A stretch of 64,000 nucleotides of DNA from Aureispira sp. CCB-QB1. Its GTDB lineage: Bacteria > Bacteroidota > Bacteroidia > Chitinophagales > Saprospiraceae. Under the pieces are notes generated by a model. The model was not told where the DNA came from and ran no database searches. It saw only the letters and a program-made list of their open reading frames with translations. The position numbers and the translations under genes were made by a program. This document shows, one piece after another, positions 3,601-22,885 of this stretch. How positions within the stretch are numbered: position 1 is the stretch's first letter; the number at the start of each line of letters is the position of its first letter. The DNA is taken from positions 1-64,000 of the forward strand of contig NZ_JHBV01000031.1 of assembly GCF_000724545.1 (NCBI RefSeq). Reading direction: 5' to 3'.

Positions 3601-5449
3601 AGGAGGAAGTGATTTGGCAACGGCACCAGATGTAACGAGTGTTTTTGTACCAACAGCGGCACAGTGGCGCACAGAAACAGTTGATTTGAGTGCTTACGAT
3701 GGTGCTAGCCATGTACGAGTTGCCTTTTTGAATTTATCAGGTTACGGACAACATGTTTATGTGGATAACATCAACATTCAAGCTGCTGTATCTTGTAACT
3801 TGACAGGAGCGATTGCGGCTACAACAGATGTTAGTTGTCATGGTGGTAATGATGGAGGTGTCACGGTGACAGCTTCTGGAGGAACGCCAGCCTATTCTTA
3901 CAATATAGGTGCAGGAAGCCAAGCATCTGGTACTTTTGCAGGATTGAGTCAAGGAACTTATACCATTACAATTACAGATAATGCTTCTTGTTCAGCAACA
4001 GTAGGTGTTTCTATTGGCGAACCTGCTGCCTTAACAGCTTCGTTGAGTTCAAGTTCAGATGTTGCTTGTTTTGGAGGAGCAACTGGAATGGCTGAAATTT
4101 CGACAGTAGGAGGAACACCAGTCTATTCTTATAATATTGGTTCTGGGAGTCAGGTATCGGGTTTATTTAGTGGGCTTGTTGCCAATAATTATACCGTCAC
4201 AGTGATCGATGGCAATAACTGTACAACAACAGTTCCTGTTACTATCACAGAACCCACCAGTGCTCTAACGGGAGCCGTGTCGAATACAACGGATCCTACT
4301 TGTAATGGTAGTTCAGATGGAAGTATTACCGTAGGGGGAACAGGAGGAACAGCACCTTATAATTACAATATTGGATCTGGCAATCAGTTTACAGGCTCAT
4401 TTACGGCTTTGTCAAGCGGTACTTACACGGTTTCAATTACAGATGGTAATAACTGTACGACCACAACAACAGCAACATTAACCAATCCAAGTTTAATTTC
4501 ATCGAATGTATCCGTTTCTAGCAATTATAACGGAGCACAAATCAGTTGTAATGGAGCATCTGATGGAGAAATTACAGCCACCGCAACAGGTGGAACTGGA
4601 GCATTGACTTATGCATGGAGTAATGGACAAACAGGCTCTGTAGCTAGCAACTTGTCTGCCAATGCTTACACTGTGACAATTACAGATGCCAATGGTTGTA
4701 GTACGGACGTAGCTGTAATCGTGAGTGAACCAACAGCACTAGTCGCCACGGCTACTGTCAATAATGCGGTTTCTTGTAATGGAGGAACAGATGGTATTGC
4801 TAGCGTTACTACAACAGGTGGTACAGGGGCAACTACGGCGATATGGAGTGATGGACAAGTAGGGGTAACTGCAACAGGTTTGGCAGCGAATGCCTATACT
4901 GTCAGCATTACAGATGCGAATGGTTGTAATACGTCTACTAGTGTAACTATGACTGAACCAACAACGGCACTTTCTGGAACAGTCGTTGATAATGGAGATG
5001 GTTCTGCAACAGCAGCAGGGACAGGAGGAACAGCGGGATACACGTATCAGTGGGATGCTGCGGCAAACAACCAAACAACCGCAACAGCAACTGGATTGGT
5101 TAATAACGGAACTTACGATGTGACAATTACGGATGCCAATGGTTGTACAACGGTTGCATCTGTAACGATCAATATCGTTGGTTTGAATCAAATTTCAAAT
5201 CTATCTACTTTTGATGTTATTCCAAATCCTAATGCAGGAACGTTCCAAGTACAAGTATCCTTTACAGAGGCTAAGACAGCAACGGTGCGTTTGACCAATG
5301 TATTGGGGCAAGTATTAAGAGAGTATACTTACTCAGATGCTTCGTTTAGCATACCAGTAGAACTTACAAATCAAGCAAGTGGTGTTTACTTTGTTGTCCT
5401 TCAAACAGGAACACAGCACACGACGAAAAAAGTTGTTGTAACAAAATAG
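614..5449 (+). CDS. T9SS-secreted trypsin-like serine protease with SprB repeats
   Basis: This 1611-residue secreted protein starts with a signal peptide (about residues 1-20, ending AFAQ). A chymotrypsin/lysyl-endopeptidase-like domain spans about 213-470. Its likely triad is His253 (in TALHC), Asp318 (in GSDFLLLE) and Ser404 (in GGSSGSP). Next come two near-identical modules of about 290 residues (about 478-765 and 770-1055), each joining a CARDB-like segment (LDAGIS..NP) to a MAM/cleaved-adhesin-like jelly roll. Five SprB-type repeats and one degenerate copy follow (about 1059-1525; hallmark SCNGGTDG). The C-terminus is a type A T9SS sorting domain (PNPNAGTF, GVYFVVLQT). Expected role: extracellular or cell-surface proteolysis, exported by Sec and then T9SS. 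Domain assignments rest on motif recognition. The first ATG fits the signal peptide. Confidence 0.88.
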   Translation: MQKISLLTTLFFICSLTAFAQINDGSMPKSFTPAFYLNKNIPLVTMPALDMATINHENTERDAKGVLMFNTKIQSTSIALGAQGVWDKYPNGDRIWRTRIQAKDAKGMVLYFSNFRIPQGAKLYVYSIDKKEVLGGFTSTNNQVSGKFALGPIHSDDVIVEYLEPSNVAGQGQFTIDGIGNMYRFAKSADNFGDSDPCEVNVNCTPEGNGKIQQRDAVARILVRVGSNAGWCSGAMVNNALQNCDRYFLTALHCALGTQGVNSSIASASDFGQWIFYFNYQASGCTSPSSQGTLANQSLTGCTMRAHSNGGGGNNGSDFLLLEINNAIPSSYNVFFAGWNAGTAATTGGYGIHHPAGDIKKVSTFSATTATTGWNGSGLNSHWGLSWIATTNGHGVTEGGSSGSPLFNSAGLIVGTLTGGSSFCTSPNSPDAYGKMSYHWTSNGAAANRQLKVWLDPNNSGITTLAGTYFPCTPVNSLDAGISNITNPADSTTICDDPFAPEVVLENFGTTTLTSATINYQVNSGTINTFSWTGSLATGATQTVTLPTVAIPAGGAVFTFRAFTSNPNGGTDGNTANDETSVVSQYRTSSALPYAEAFGGGALPTDIIILDQNGDGNEWGHNTTVNGFGAAAGTGCMAMDNFAANFAGQYDWFFVPTLDLTGQTGTSLTFDVAYARYDATYSDTLIVAINSDCGTSYTPVYFKGGSDLATAPDATTIFTPTAAQWRTETVDLSAYDGASHVRVAFLNLSGYGQRMFVDNINIQAGTVANGLDAGISSITNPVDSTTICDDPFVPEVVLENFGTTTLTSVTINYQVNTGTIGTFAWTGSLAAGATETVSLPLVNIPAGGAIFTFRAFTSNPNAGTDADPNNDETSVVSQYRATSALPYAEAFGGGAVPTDIILLDQNGDGNVWDYDNSVNGFGTAVDVGCMHMDNFTANFAGQYDWFFVPTLDLTGQTGTSLTFDVAYARYDATYSDTLIVAINSDCGTSYTPVYLKGGSDLATAPDVTSVFVPTAAQWRTETVDLSAYDGASHVRVAFLNLSGYGQHVYVDNINIQAAVSCNLTGAIAATTDVSCHGGNDGGVTVTASGGTPAYSYNIGAGSQASGTFAGLSQGTYTITITDNASCSATVGVSIGEPAALTASLSSSSDVACFGGATGMAEISTVGGTPVYSYNIGSGSQVSGLFSGLVANNYTVTVIDGNNCTTTVPVTITEPTSALTGAVSNTTDPTCNGSSDGSITVGGTGGTAPYNYNIGSGNQFTGSFTALSSGTYTVSITDGNNCTTTTTATLTNPSLISSNVSVSSNYNGAQISCNGASDGEITATATGGTGALTYAWSNGQTGSVASNLSANAYTVTITDANGCSTDVAVIVSEPTALVATATVNNAVSCNGGTDGIASVTTTGGTGATTAIWSDGQVGVTATGLAANAYTVSITDANGCNTSTSVTMTEPTTALSGTVVDNGDGSATAAGTGGTAGYTYQWDAAANNQTTATATGLVNNGTYDVTITDANGCTTVASVTINIVGLNQISNLSTFDVIPNPNAGTFQVQVSFTEAKTATVRLTNVLGQVLREYTYSDASFSIPVELTNQASGVYFVVLQTGTQHTTKKVVVTK

Positions 5450-19580: not shown

Positions 19581-20381
19581 TTAAGAAATACCAAACAAGC
19601 GTTTAATCTGTTGACTGACAATCTTAATTCTTAATTTGGTTGGAAGAAAACGTGTTAAAAAATAATGCCCCAACCGCATGAAAAAGCTTCCAGCTACATA
19701 GTTAGGCGACTTTCCAAGTGCTCGAAGAGCTTGTTGTACCGATTGTTGAACAGACATAACCATACCTCCATTGCCATCACCACCTTGAGCGATGTAACCA
19801 GGAGTTTTGGTTGGTCCAGGCATAAAACCAAGGACATCGACACCAAAGGGTTTTAGTTCTGCCCAAAGAGACTCTGCTAGTTTTAAATCAAAAGCTTTAG
19901 TAGCAGCGTAAGTAGCATTGTAGGCACTAGATAGCTCTCCTGCACCAGAGGATAGGATGATAATGCCTCCACGTCTCTGAGCTTGCATCTGGCGAGCAAA
20001 ATGATGGGTTAACAATAAAACGACTTTGGTATTTAAGTGCAATTGCATAGACAAAAACTGAGTCGATTGAGGAGCAAAATAGCCAATTTTAGAAATGCCT
20101 ACGTTATTGATTAACAATCCAATTTGATAGGCTTGGATTTGAGGCAAAAGTAATTCTAAAAAATCTGTTCTAGAGAGATCAAGGACAATCGGACGTACTT
20201 CTACTTTTGTTTTCTGCGTAATTTCTTCGCACGTTGTAAGCAAGGCAGTTTTATTGTGGTCAACAGCAATAATAGAAATGCCTTTTTGAGCAATTTGGAG
20301 CGCAAATTCAGCTCCTAGCCCCATAGCAGCACCTGTTATTAATGCCCAAGGACCATATTGTTGAGCAAATGTTTGATTCAT
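19581..20381 (-). CDS. SDR family oxidoreductase
   Basis: A 266-residue short-chain dehydrogenase with the glycine motif TGAAMGLG (about 16-23), NNVG, catalytic Ser in ILSSGAGE and YxxxK in NATYAATKAF. The C-terminal extension is basic (LRIKIVSQQIKRLFG), perhaps membrane-associating. It resembles 17-beta-hydroxysteroid/3-ketoacyl-type reductases; the substrate is unknown. Its ATG overlaps the stop of the upstream secreted dikinase-like gene by one base (TAATG), implying translational coupling. It is not closely similar to the other SDR at 5569. Confidence 0.87.
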   Translation of the reverse strand: MNQTFAQQYGPWALITGAAMGLGAEFALQIAQKGISIIAVDHNKTALLTTCEEITQKTKVEVRPIVLDLSRTDFLELLLPQIQAYQIGLLINNVGISKIGYFAPQSTQFLSMQLHLNTKVVLLLTHHFARQMQAQRRGGIIILSSGAGELSSAYNATYAATKAFDLKLAESLWAELKPFGVDVLGFMPGPTKTPGYIAQGGDGNGGMVMSVQQSVQQALRALGKSPNYVAGSFFMRLGHYFLTRFLPTKLRIKIVSQQIKRLFGIS

Positions 20382-22885
20382 TATCTTTTTACAAATTTTT
20401 TAGAGGTGTAGGTTCCTTTATGAGCTAAAAAGCCACTTAATACGTAAATTCCTGGAGGTAAATCTTTGATATAAATCCTAAAATCTGGATGGTTAGAAAT
20501 GCTTAGACATTGGTGTAACACTTGTTTGCCAAGCATATTACTAATCATAACCTCCGAAGGATTTCCGTCTATCCAATCTACTTGGATGTAGTCACTAGCA
20601 GGATTCGGATATAGATTAAAATCAAGATGATCGGAATCAGGAATACTAAAGGAATGGGTAGCTTGATAGGCAACCCAAGGGCGGGCTTGTTTGATAATTA
20701 ATTGACCATCACGCGTGATTTTGTATTCTATTTCCATGGCAAATGTTTCATTACCAATAGCATCATAAAGCCCTTCAAATTCATGGTGAATGGTGGTTAA
20801 ATAAGTGCGCATTTGGTTAAGGTAATCTCCTTGCATGATGGTGGTATTATTGGCAGCAAGATTAGAACGTCTAACGAGGATGTAATCGTTAGAACTTGAC
20901 GAGTTGGCATCCAATAAAATTTCTTCAGGAATAGCATTGCCATCTGGATTGGTAATTAGAGTTTCCCCTACTTGTGAATTTAGGTAATAAAACGTATTGT
21001 TGGTTTGGTAAACAGGATCTTTGCTAACTCCTACACCATTGACTTGCTCATTGGCATAGTTGGAATGACAGAGTAGTGCCATAGATGCTGTAAAATGGTT
21101 GACCTTATAAAACGCTCGTTCGTCAAAAGCTCTCAAACTCCACAAACTGGCATAAACTTGTTGAACGGATTTTGCAATATGCCCTTCATTTGGATGATGG
21201 GTCTTAGATTCGTATAGTCCAGCGCCATTAAAACCTGGTAAATCCTCATTATTAGTACTAGAGCGACACCGAATAGAAGTGTTCGGAGGAAATGAAGCTT
21301 GCATCTTTTCTAAATTATCCCGCATCCAATTGGGCATTAAAGCATTTTCTATTTTTTTTCTAAAATCGGCTAAAAGATGTGCTCTTAAGTTTCGGTTGGT
21401 GGCAAAATCTGGATTGCTAAGCATCAACCTAGCTTGTTCAAAAAGATTGTTGTGCTTCATGAACTTCTGATAATAATAAAAGGGAATGCCAAAACCATTG
21501 GGAATTGTTCCTTCTGGAAAACCAAACGTTCGCATGGTTGCAACATTGGCACATTTGGCACCAAAACCGTCGTACATCGAAAAGGTAATTTCATCTAAAG
21601 GTAAGATGGCGTCATGATTTAGATTTAAAGGAGAGGTTTGTTTTTGCTCAGGGCGTAAGCTCTCATACCATTGATTGACTTCTTCTGAACTGGCTTCTCG
21701 AATAAAAAACTTATCGGGCTCGACTTTGAAATAAATAGTATGATTTAATAAGCGAGCAATGGAGTCTATAGATAAGGGGTCTCGAATAAATGCATTGGGT
21801 ACGCCGTCTTGAATCGCCCTTAAATTAACATGAGACAAAGGTGTTTGTATGACAGAGGTGATTATTCCTCCTACACGAGGTAGAGAGTTGGGTAAAGAGG
21901 CATATAAAACAATATCTTTGATTCCTGGAATATCAGACAAAGACATTTCCCTAAAAAAGCCATATCCCTCTGCTTCATTCAATCCCCAATAGTCAACTTG
22001 GGCAAAAACATCTTTTTCAAAAAGCAATGGAATTCTAGAAGTTTTGTACTTTGTCGAATCTCGTTCGTATTCGTCTTGGCTGTTTGTGGTAACGTAATAA
22101 GACAAATTATTGTTAAGAAAAGGCATATTGGCTGCTAGCAGCTCATGACACTTTTGAACGATTTCAAAATTTTCGCCATGTCCATTGCTATAATTAAAAG
22201 CAAAAGTACCCAAAGTACCATTGTTCGAAATAGTAGTAGGGTGATAAATAAGTTGTCCTTTTTTGACATCATTTCCTAGATGTCTAATGCCTACTGCATT
22301 GGCAAAATCTGCGTGAAGGGTATGCGTATTTCCATTAATGAAATAGACTTTAGGTGCTGTCGTAAAATCGGTAATAATAAACTTAGCATACCGTTTCCCA
22401 TTAAGAAATTCAGACCATTGTACAAAATCTCTTGCAATAGATAATTGATTGAATGTACTAAAGCTATCAATTGAGATGCTTCCATTGACTGGGGCGATAG
22501 ATGGAGCAGCGTTAATGGGGTTTTGAGTAGGGAAATTTTGAAGCTCTGAAATATCGTCTATGCCATCACCATCTATATCATAGGGAGCGGCAATGGGATA
22601 TTCTAAGACTTGATAATGTGCAAGCGAATAGTATGCTAATGGTTCGGTAAGAGTGGTTGTGCCTGATTTACCAAGTTGGATGGAAGTGGTCAACTCGAAA
22701 CTTTGAGTACTATCGTGTCTTACTTGTAAAAGATAATAGTGTTGAGTAGTTGAAGAAACTTCTAACTGAACTCGTCCATCTATTGTGGTCGAATAATTGA
22801 TAATAGGCACTTGTTGCCCAAAGACAGAACAACACAAAGGAGTTGCCATTATAAAAAAGAGAAGAAAGTAAACTATTTTATACAT
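20381..22885 (-). CDS. Secreted dikinase-like (His domain + ATP-grasp) protein with T9SS tail
   Basis: An 834-residue protein with a signal peptide (1-23). A phosphohistidine-swivel-like segment has candidate His352 in TPLSHVNLRA...GVPNAF. A PEP-synthase-type nucleotide-binding domain covers about 430-755: GAKCANVATMRTFGFPEG, IRCRSSTNNEDLPGFNGAGL and the terminal IKQARPW. A T9SS sorting domain ends the protein (about 760-834; LYPNPASDYIQVDW, GIYVLSGF). His domain followed by ATP-grasp is the order found in plant alpha-glucan water dikinases, not in PpsA or PPDK. Function is unknown. An ATP-using enzyme exported across the outer membrane is unexpected; it may be a surface protein that has kept only the fold. 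It is coupled to the downstream SDR gene. Confidence 0.8.
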   Translation of the reverse strand: MYKIVYFLLFFIMATPLCCSVFGQQVPIINYSTTIDGRVQLEVSSTTQHYYLLQVRHDSTQSFELTTSIQLGKSGTTTLTEPLAYYSLAHYQVLEYPIAAPYDIDGDGIDDISELQNFPTQNPINAAPSIAPVNGSISIDSFSTFNQLSIARDFVQWSEFLNGKRYAKFIITDFTTAPKVYFINGNTHTLHADFANAVGIRHLGNDVKKGQLIYHPTTISNNGTLGTFAFNYSNGHGENFEIVQKCHELLAANMPFLNNNLSYYVTTNSQDEYERDSTKYKTSRIPLLFEKDVFAQVDYWGLNEAEGYGFFREMSLSDIPGIKDIVLYASLPNSLPRVGGIITSVIQTPLSHVNLRAIQDGVPNAFIRDPLSIDSIARLLNHTIYFKVEPDKFFIREASSEEVNQWYESLRPEQKQTSPLNLNHDAILPLDEITFSMYDGFGAKCANVATMRTFGFPEGTIPNGFGIPFYYYQKFMKHNNLFEQARLMLSNPDFATNRNLRAHLLADFRKKIENALMPNWMRDNLEKMQASFPPNTSIRCRSSTNNEDLPGFNGAGLYESKTHHPNEGHIAKSVQQVYASLWSLRAFDERAFYKVNHFTASMALLCHSNYANEQVNGVGVSKDPVYQTNNTFYYLNSQVGETLITNPDGNAIPEEILLDANSSSSNDYILVRRSNLAANNTTIMQGDYLNQMRTYLTTIHHEFEGLYDAIGNETFAMEIEYKITRDGQLIIKQARPWVAYQATHSFSIPDSDHLDFNLYPNPASDYIQVDWIDGNPSEVMISNMLGKQVLHQCLSISNHPDFRIYIKDLPPGIYVLSGFLAHKGTYTSKKFVKR

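Follow-up and report, generated by a model that had tools for sequence, protein, structure and literature searches.

To our knowledge, every phosphohistidine dikinase characterised so far operates within a cell or a plastid, in surroundings rich in ATP; extracellularly, free ATP is scarce. Rifampin phosphotransferase and the HpeHI-type dikinases are intracellular, and in glucan water dikinase the histidine domain comes before the nucleotide-binding domain. The latter enzyme acts in chloroplasts (PMC12892837). A search of titles and the beginnings of abstracts, with subscription journals and preprints outside its scope, returned no description of an exported dikinase. Here we analysed a stretch of 64,000 nucleotides from Aureispira sp. 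CCB-QB1 (the window), in which one gene is predicted to encode an 834-aa protein of dikinase-like architecture, an assignment that is well supported by sequence comparison.

The open reading frame was found at the coordinates given by the first-pass annotation and lies on the minus strand (Table 1), the plus strand having no listed open reading frame of at least 90 aa over the same interval. In Pfam, the protein matched PPDK_N and Por_Secre_tail and no further family at E <=1. Downstream lies a short-chain-dehydrogenase-like gene, whose ATG shares one base with the stop codon of the 834-aa frame, and upstream a release-factor-3-like gene (both named by eye). Among congeners both neighbours are kept in L037, only the upstream gene in L045 and neither in L038; dehydrogenase-like genes also occur near the homologue in L048, L085 and L114, the family itself being common.

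Table 1. Features of the 834-aa protein gene, with positions in the window
Feature	Residues (aa)	Position	Strand	Basis
Whole gene	834 aa	20381..22885	minus	ORF; stop codon 20381-20383
Signal peptide	1-23	22817..22885	minus	by eye: cleavage before QQVPI, no lipobox
T9SS-clade extra module at the N-terminus, with a DxDxDGxxD motif at its end	24-125	22511..22816	minus	alignment
Uncharacterised N-terminal domain; invariant His191 (codon 22313-22315)	130-310	21956..22498	minus	alignments
Phosphohistidine-like swivel domain; His352 (codon 21830-21832)	311-415	21641..21955	minus	profile comparisons and alignments
PPDK_N nucleotide-binding domain; K444, R541, S560, E720, Q733, R735; C445, C540, C606	441-741	20663..21565	minus	Pfam and alignments
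T9SS type A sorting domain	758-834	20384..20614	minus	TIGR04183 E 4.5e-11; PF18962 E 8.6e-11

Export signals and relatives

The signal peptide and the T9SS tail proposed by the first-pass annotation were borne out, the former by eye and the latter by profile matches, with Por_Secre_tail covering aa 758-831. The window genome encodes SprA (2416 bits) and at least 150 type A sorting tails (150 of the 337 candidates scored; the tail of 20381..22885 is not among the matches listed), which together indicate a T9SS in Aureispira sp. CCB-QB1. Thus the protein has the signal peptide and type A tail of a T9SS type A cargo, in a genome with the secretion system. Another type A sorting tail was seen at window positions 5219-5440 on the plus strand, within a 1625-aa open frame. 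In a contig scan that returned at least 528 relatives, the best 80 were kept, all named Bacteroidota, and an open reading frame was recovered for every one of them. Within this set, a signal-like N-terminus was present in 77/80 by a simple hydrophobicity rule, a hydrophobic N-terminal stretch being found in the other three too, and the TIGR04183 tail occurred in 73 of the 74 C-termini scanned (the 834-aa protein and the 73 of the best 80 that are uncut by a contig end). The export signals of the 834-aa protein can be regarded as well supported.

The best 80 relatives comprise short forms, like the 834-aa protein, as well as long forms that reach up to 1570 aa, one of which (L010) has CARDB matches in its additional part. 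Of 395 genomes drawn evenly from the phylum, only the window genome and G102 (L128) had an open reading frame of the T9SS form, so it is not common there; phages gave no match to the family. In a tree of the nucleotide-binding domain, which carried long-branch warnings, the T9SS, paralogue and tail-less forms grouped together (96/94) and the T9SS clade was recovered at 100/99. Two proteins of Streptomyces plasmids (L156 and L157) have the same succession of N-terminal domain with its histidine, phosphohistidine domain and nucleotide-binding domain, together with the catalytic set. Their loci (L156:3127-7807, L157:3154-7981) hold genes for an ATP-grasp protein, the His-then-NBD dikinase-like protein and an MFS transporter, a set that looks like a small-molecule pathway.

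In the window genome, PPDK_N matches three proteins at E 0.001, each of which begins with a signal-like segment. Besides the 834-aa protein, these are a 670-aa paralogue (C43, L002 394-2406; L044) of His-then-NBD order, without a T9SS tail and with intact catalytic residues, and a 327-aa protein (C8, L003 1345-2328) scoring 22.4 bits against a cut-off of 27. The latter has no histidine domain and an altered RSS motif and is a degenerate copy, so that loss is visible where it happened in this genome. Since the window genome gave no PF00391 match at E 1 and all its PPDK_N proteins start signal-like, a cytosolic PpsA was not found there. Across the genus (G000-G007), PF00391 likewise has no match at E 1 in any of the four genomes that carry the T9SS form, but matches strongly in three of the four others; the last of these, G002, reaches only E 0.011. 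This split could be lineage structure.

A second family with signal-like starts (L013, L014, L015, L018, L142) consists of proteins of about 970 aa with SHVQLLARNLGIPNA followed by the nucleotide-binding domain. A serine-hydrolase-like gene (by eye) lies directly 3' of these genes in 5/6 loci first examined, being absent in L017, and an SHVQ motif occurs in 16/17 loci, L170 being the exception (L142 and L167 are one gene, as are L017 and L169).

Nucleotide-binding and histidine domains

The PPDK_N match (E 1.2e-21; 77.8 bits, gathering cut-off 27) contains the RSSTNNEDLPG and QARPW motifs named by the first-pass annotation. Hhalign placed the domain on cytosolic PpsA across 298 columns (99.5%, E 4.1e-22), and solved PEP synthases were matched too (9dae, E 1.9e-21); in the PpsA register given by hhalign, the full dikinase ATP-site set (Lys, Arg, Thr/Ser, Glu, Gln, Arg) is present. 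In the alignment of the 834-aa protein with the best 80 of the at least 528 relatives, Lys444, Arg541 and Ser560 are invariant (81/81), Glu641 is kept in 80/81, with Ser in L057, and no exception occurs at Glu720, Gln733 or Arg735 in the 80 readable rows, L077 ending inside the domain. As 126 of the 431 columns of aa 311-741 are conserved in at least 80/81 of these close relatives, a deep alignment of 18 sequences constitutes the stronger test. It comprised eight members of the T9SS clade, five tail-less proteins of about 630 aa, three of the 670-aa paralogue group and the two from Streptomyces, the ten non-T9SS rows having 17-23% identity to the 834-aa protein over the N-terminal and phosphohistidine domains. 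Even there, where 35/431 columns are invariant, H191, H352, K444, R541, S560, E720, Q733 and R735 were found in 18/18. The conservation of His352 and of the ATP-site Arg and Glu in homologues with T9SS tails, which the first-pass annotation had proposed as a check, was thus observed, and its suggestion of a protein that has lost catalysis is unlikely, given the complete or almost complete conservation of His352 and the ATP-site residues in the 81 close and 18 diverged sequences. Catalytic competence of the 834-aa protein is therefore likely on sequence grounds.

Previous work on rifampin phosphotransferase bears on these residues. Substitutions of Lys22, Arg117 and Thr136 are reported to have abolished resistance or product formation (PMC4844700), and K444, R541 and S560 may correspond to these three, in a register set by motif position rather than from a printed residue alignment. 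Activity was not abolished by Glu297Ala in that enzyme (PMC4844700), and so the conservation of E720 alone proves little.

Three cysteines set the T9SS clade apart among the rows compared. Among the protein and the best 80 of at least 528 relatives, Cys445 is kept in 75/81, Cys540 in 72/81 and Cys606 in 81/81, and in 80/81 rows Cys606 occurs together with one or both of the others, the exception being L077 (Val, Ser), whereas all three are absent from the ten non-T9SS rows of the deep alignment (0/10). Cys445 adjoins Lys444 and Cys540 adjoins Arg541, and the set may act as a redox switch of the ATP site or form a disulphide there.

As the first-pass annotation stated, the segment TPLSHVNLRA with His352 is present. 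His352 and the whole of QTPLSH are invariant in 81/81 rows (the protein and the best 80 of at least 528 relatives), which makes the motifs more than chance, and in the deep alignment the only invariant histidines are His352 and His191. That this segment forms a swivel domain is shown by a chain of matches, leading from this family to the L013-type proteins and from them to the phosphohistidine domain of PEP synthase, and not by a direct match. A profile of the N-terminal and phosphohistidine domains that leaves out the L013-type rows (A5) gave 21 matches in 20 of the 395 genomes. Ten, in nine genomes, covered the whole profile, six of them being rows of A5 itself; the other eleven covered the phosphohistidine part only, and, with a best E of 2.6e-10, all lie in L013-type open reading frames of 970-1041 aa. 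In these genomes A5 matched no PpsA-type frame at E 1e-4. In turn, the phosphohistidine domain of the L013-type proteins (five rows) found solved PEP synthases at ranks 1-3 in the PDB (E 3e-5, 0.0057 and 0.0074) with the catalytic histidine in register, matches from E 0.013 onward being mostly unrelated; in Pfam, L013-type matches to PEP-utilizers had E values of 1.1e-4 to 3.5e-4, slightly under the cut-off of that model.

The direct comparison of the phosphohistidine domain with that of PpsA was not significant (0.4%, and 0.5% for a more diverse profile without the bridge family). When the L013-type rows were included the value rose to 25%, and a sliding-window control with these rows gave 33% and 15% in the two windows over the PpsA phosphohistidine domain and <=0.5% in the other 11. 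The profile without them gave 0.5%, no better than the reversed control; the bridge family therefore carries the signal. Counting against the swivel assignment, no dikinase was among the PDB entries matched by the mixed profile A4. PF00391 matched none of the eight full-length carrier genes at E 1. The best Pfam row for the histidine fragment was Cep192_D5 (E 0.024), which was taken as noise.

Within the N-terminal module, which is gapped in five non-T9SS rows of a MAFFT alignment, D103, D105, D107 and D111 are each conserved in at least 80/81 rows (the protein and the best 80 of at least 528 relatives), and the motif may bind calcium. The following domain is a candidate acceptor domain: its His191 was found in 81/81 rows of the same set and in 18/18 of the deep alignment, where it is the sole invariant column upstream of Gly309. 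This domain gave no credible fold match in the PDB, and hhalign comparison of the family domain with its counterpart in the group of about 630 aa (4.6%) was not significant, the value for the 670-aa paralogue group being 0.5%; homology across the groups rests on MAFFT alignments and on matches of profile A5 that span the domain.

Proposed function and alternatives

We favour, with moderate confidence, the reading that the 834-aa protein is an exported dikinase-type phosphotransferase that passes phosphate from a nucleotide via phospho-His352 to an acceptor. The protein would be exported by Sec and then by the T9SS, and its activity may thus lie outside the cell. By homology, the ATP-grasp domain would bind a nucleoside triphosphate and transfer phosphate to His352, with release of AMP and Pi; the swivel would then rotate towards the N-terminal domain, and the phosphate may be taken up there by an acceptor bound close to His191. 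Likelier acceptors than a starch-like glucan would be a small molecule or some component of the surface or matrix, and the nucleotide might come from lysed or damaged cells or from dissolved nucleotide. Nothing in the analysis provides a supply of extracellular ATP, which counts against the dikinase reading, and a phosphate-relay role that has no classical acceptor would also account for the invariance described above.

An exported nucleotide scavenger, in which phosphate would pass from ATP via phospho-His352 to water, leaving AMP and phosphate for uptake with a phosphatase helping where present, is unlikely. This idea draws on a histidine-phosphatase-superfamily gene with a signal-like or lipobox-like start, which is the immediate upstream neighbour, in the same orientation, in 22 of the 80 loci (best 80 of at least 528), with one further copy downstream on the other strand in L097. 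Its R, H, R, H set, which we take to be the functional residues of such phosphatases, is invariant in 23/23 copies, the copy in L093 matches His_Phos_1 at E 4e-14, and no other neighbour family exceeds six loci (86/87 neighbourhoods covered, L064 left out). However, by a stricter pattern that misses L124, and with taxa grouped by record names, the linkage among the best 80 is confined to long forms: 16/19 of Flavobacteriales, 4/4 unplaced and 1/31 of Saprospiraceae/Chitinophagales, against 0/26 open reading frames of <=950 aa (24 with room upstream; L069 and L077 are cut). The dikinase cores of the 23 linked loci are 72-97% identical, which implies few independent linkage events, and the phosphatase falls below the NCBIfam SixA and CobC cut-offs. 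As a general partner it was rejected for the genus of the window, since the window genome and its seven congeners have no homologue at E 1e-6; in 60 genomes, homologues occur in 3/8 carriers and 19/52 non-carriers, hence no co-occurrence. The scavenger reading also leaves the conserved N-terminal domain unexplained.

The first-pass annotation had read the protein as an envelope or extracellular analogue of glucan water dikinase acting on a polysaccharide. The part of this reading that stood is the dikinase-like architecture with the histidine domain before the nucleotide-binding domain; the kinship is weak, and as a whole we regard the reading as quite unlikely. GWD1_pHisD lies over His352 (fragment E 0.1, 12.6 bits, gathering cut-off 27; E 0.786 genome-wide), which is the window genome's single match to this model at E <=1, and it matched that region in 7/8 full-length carriers among 60 genomes including that of the window (model positions 43-113). 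Every match is nevertheless below the cut-off and, for the His352 fragment, ranks behind Cep192_D5. Of 25 rows in this search, seven belong to this family, two to the L013 type and 16 lie elsewhere, and 4/14 control genomes also matched, so that single matches mean little. The proposed polysaccharide acceptor is unsupported, as Pfam detected no carbohydrate-binding module in the protein at E <=1 and homologues with the same N-terminal domain lie beside ATP-grasp and MFS genes in Streptomyces, suggesting a small-molecule setting. A non-catalytic nucleotide- or phosphate-binding surface protein is very unlikely: the scarcity of ATP outside and the degenerate exported paralogue of the same genome would suit it, but binding alone does not demand the invariance of His352, found together with that of the ATP-site set.

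Returning to the exported phosphotransferase, the clade is of interest in that it keeps the known catalytic set yet carries tags for export across the outer membrane. If the reading is true, some Bacteroidota would run nucleotide-driven phosphorylation in the extracellular space, or would reuse dikinase machinery, e.g., for nucleotide scavenging. A wider proposal, which we consider conceivable but doubtful, is an extracellular phosphohistidine system, in which a T9SS-delivered dikinase would work on extracellular nucleotide, the ATP-site cysteines would be an adaptation to the outside and the phosphatase would be the opposing partner in marine Flavobacteriales.

Comparison with known dikinases

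With PpsA and pyruvate phosphate dikinase, the protein shares the PPDK_N domain with its ATP-site set and, linked via the L013-type proteins, the swivel histidine domain. In contrast to these enzymes, its order is reversed, with the histidine domain before the nucleotide-binding domain, and it is exported by its signals; no PEP/pyruvate barrel domain was recognised in it, and the NCBIfam PEP synthase model gave 63.8 bits against a cut-off of 598, so it is not PpsA or pyruvate phosphate dikinase proper. The plant glucan water dikinases (GWD/PWD) share the position of the histidine domain N-terminal to the nucleotide-binding domain (His352 before 441-741), whereas the protein of Aureispira is bacterial, has a different-looking N-terminal domain and bears export signals. 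An ATP-grasp domain, a swivel histidine and a separate acceptor part are common to it and to rifampin phosphotransferase and HpeHI, and the arrangement of these parts is known to vary (PMC4844700, PMC12167813); the domain arrangement of the 834-aa protein differs from theirs, and no sequence match of the acceptor domain was seen. Finally, the two Streptomyces proteins, named 'PEP/pyruvate-binding domain-containing protein', share the complete layout and catalytic set, and differ in having no visible signal peptide and no T9SS tail and in being flanked by genes for an ATP-grasp protein and an MFS transporter.
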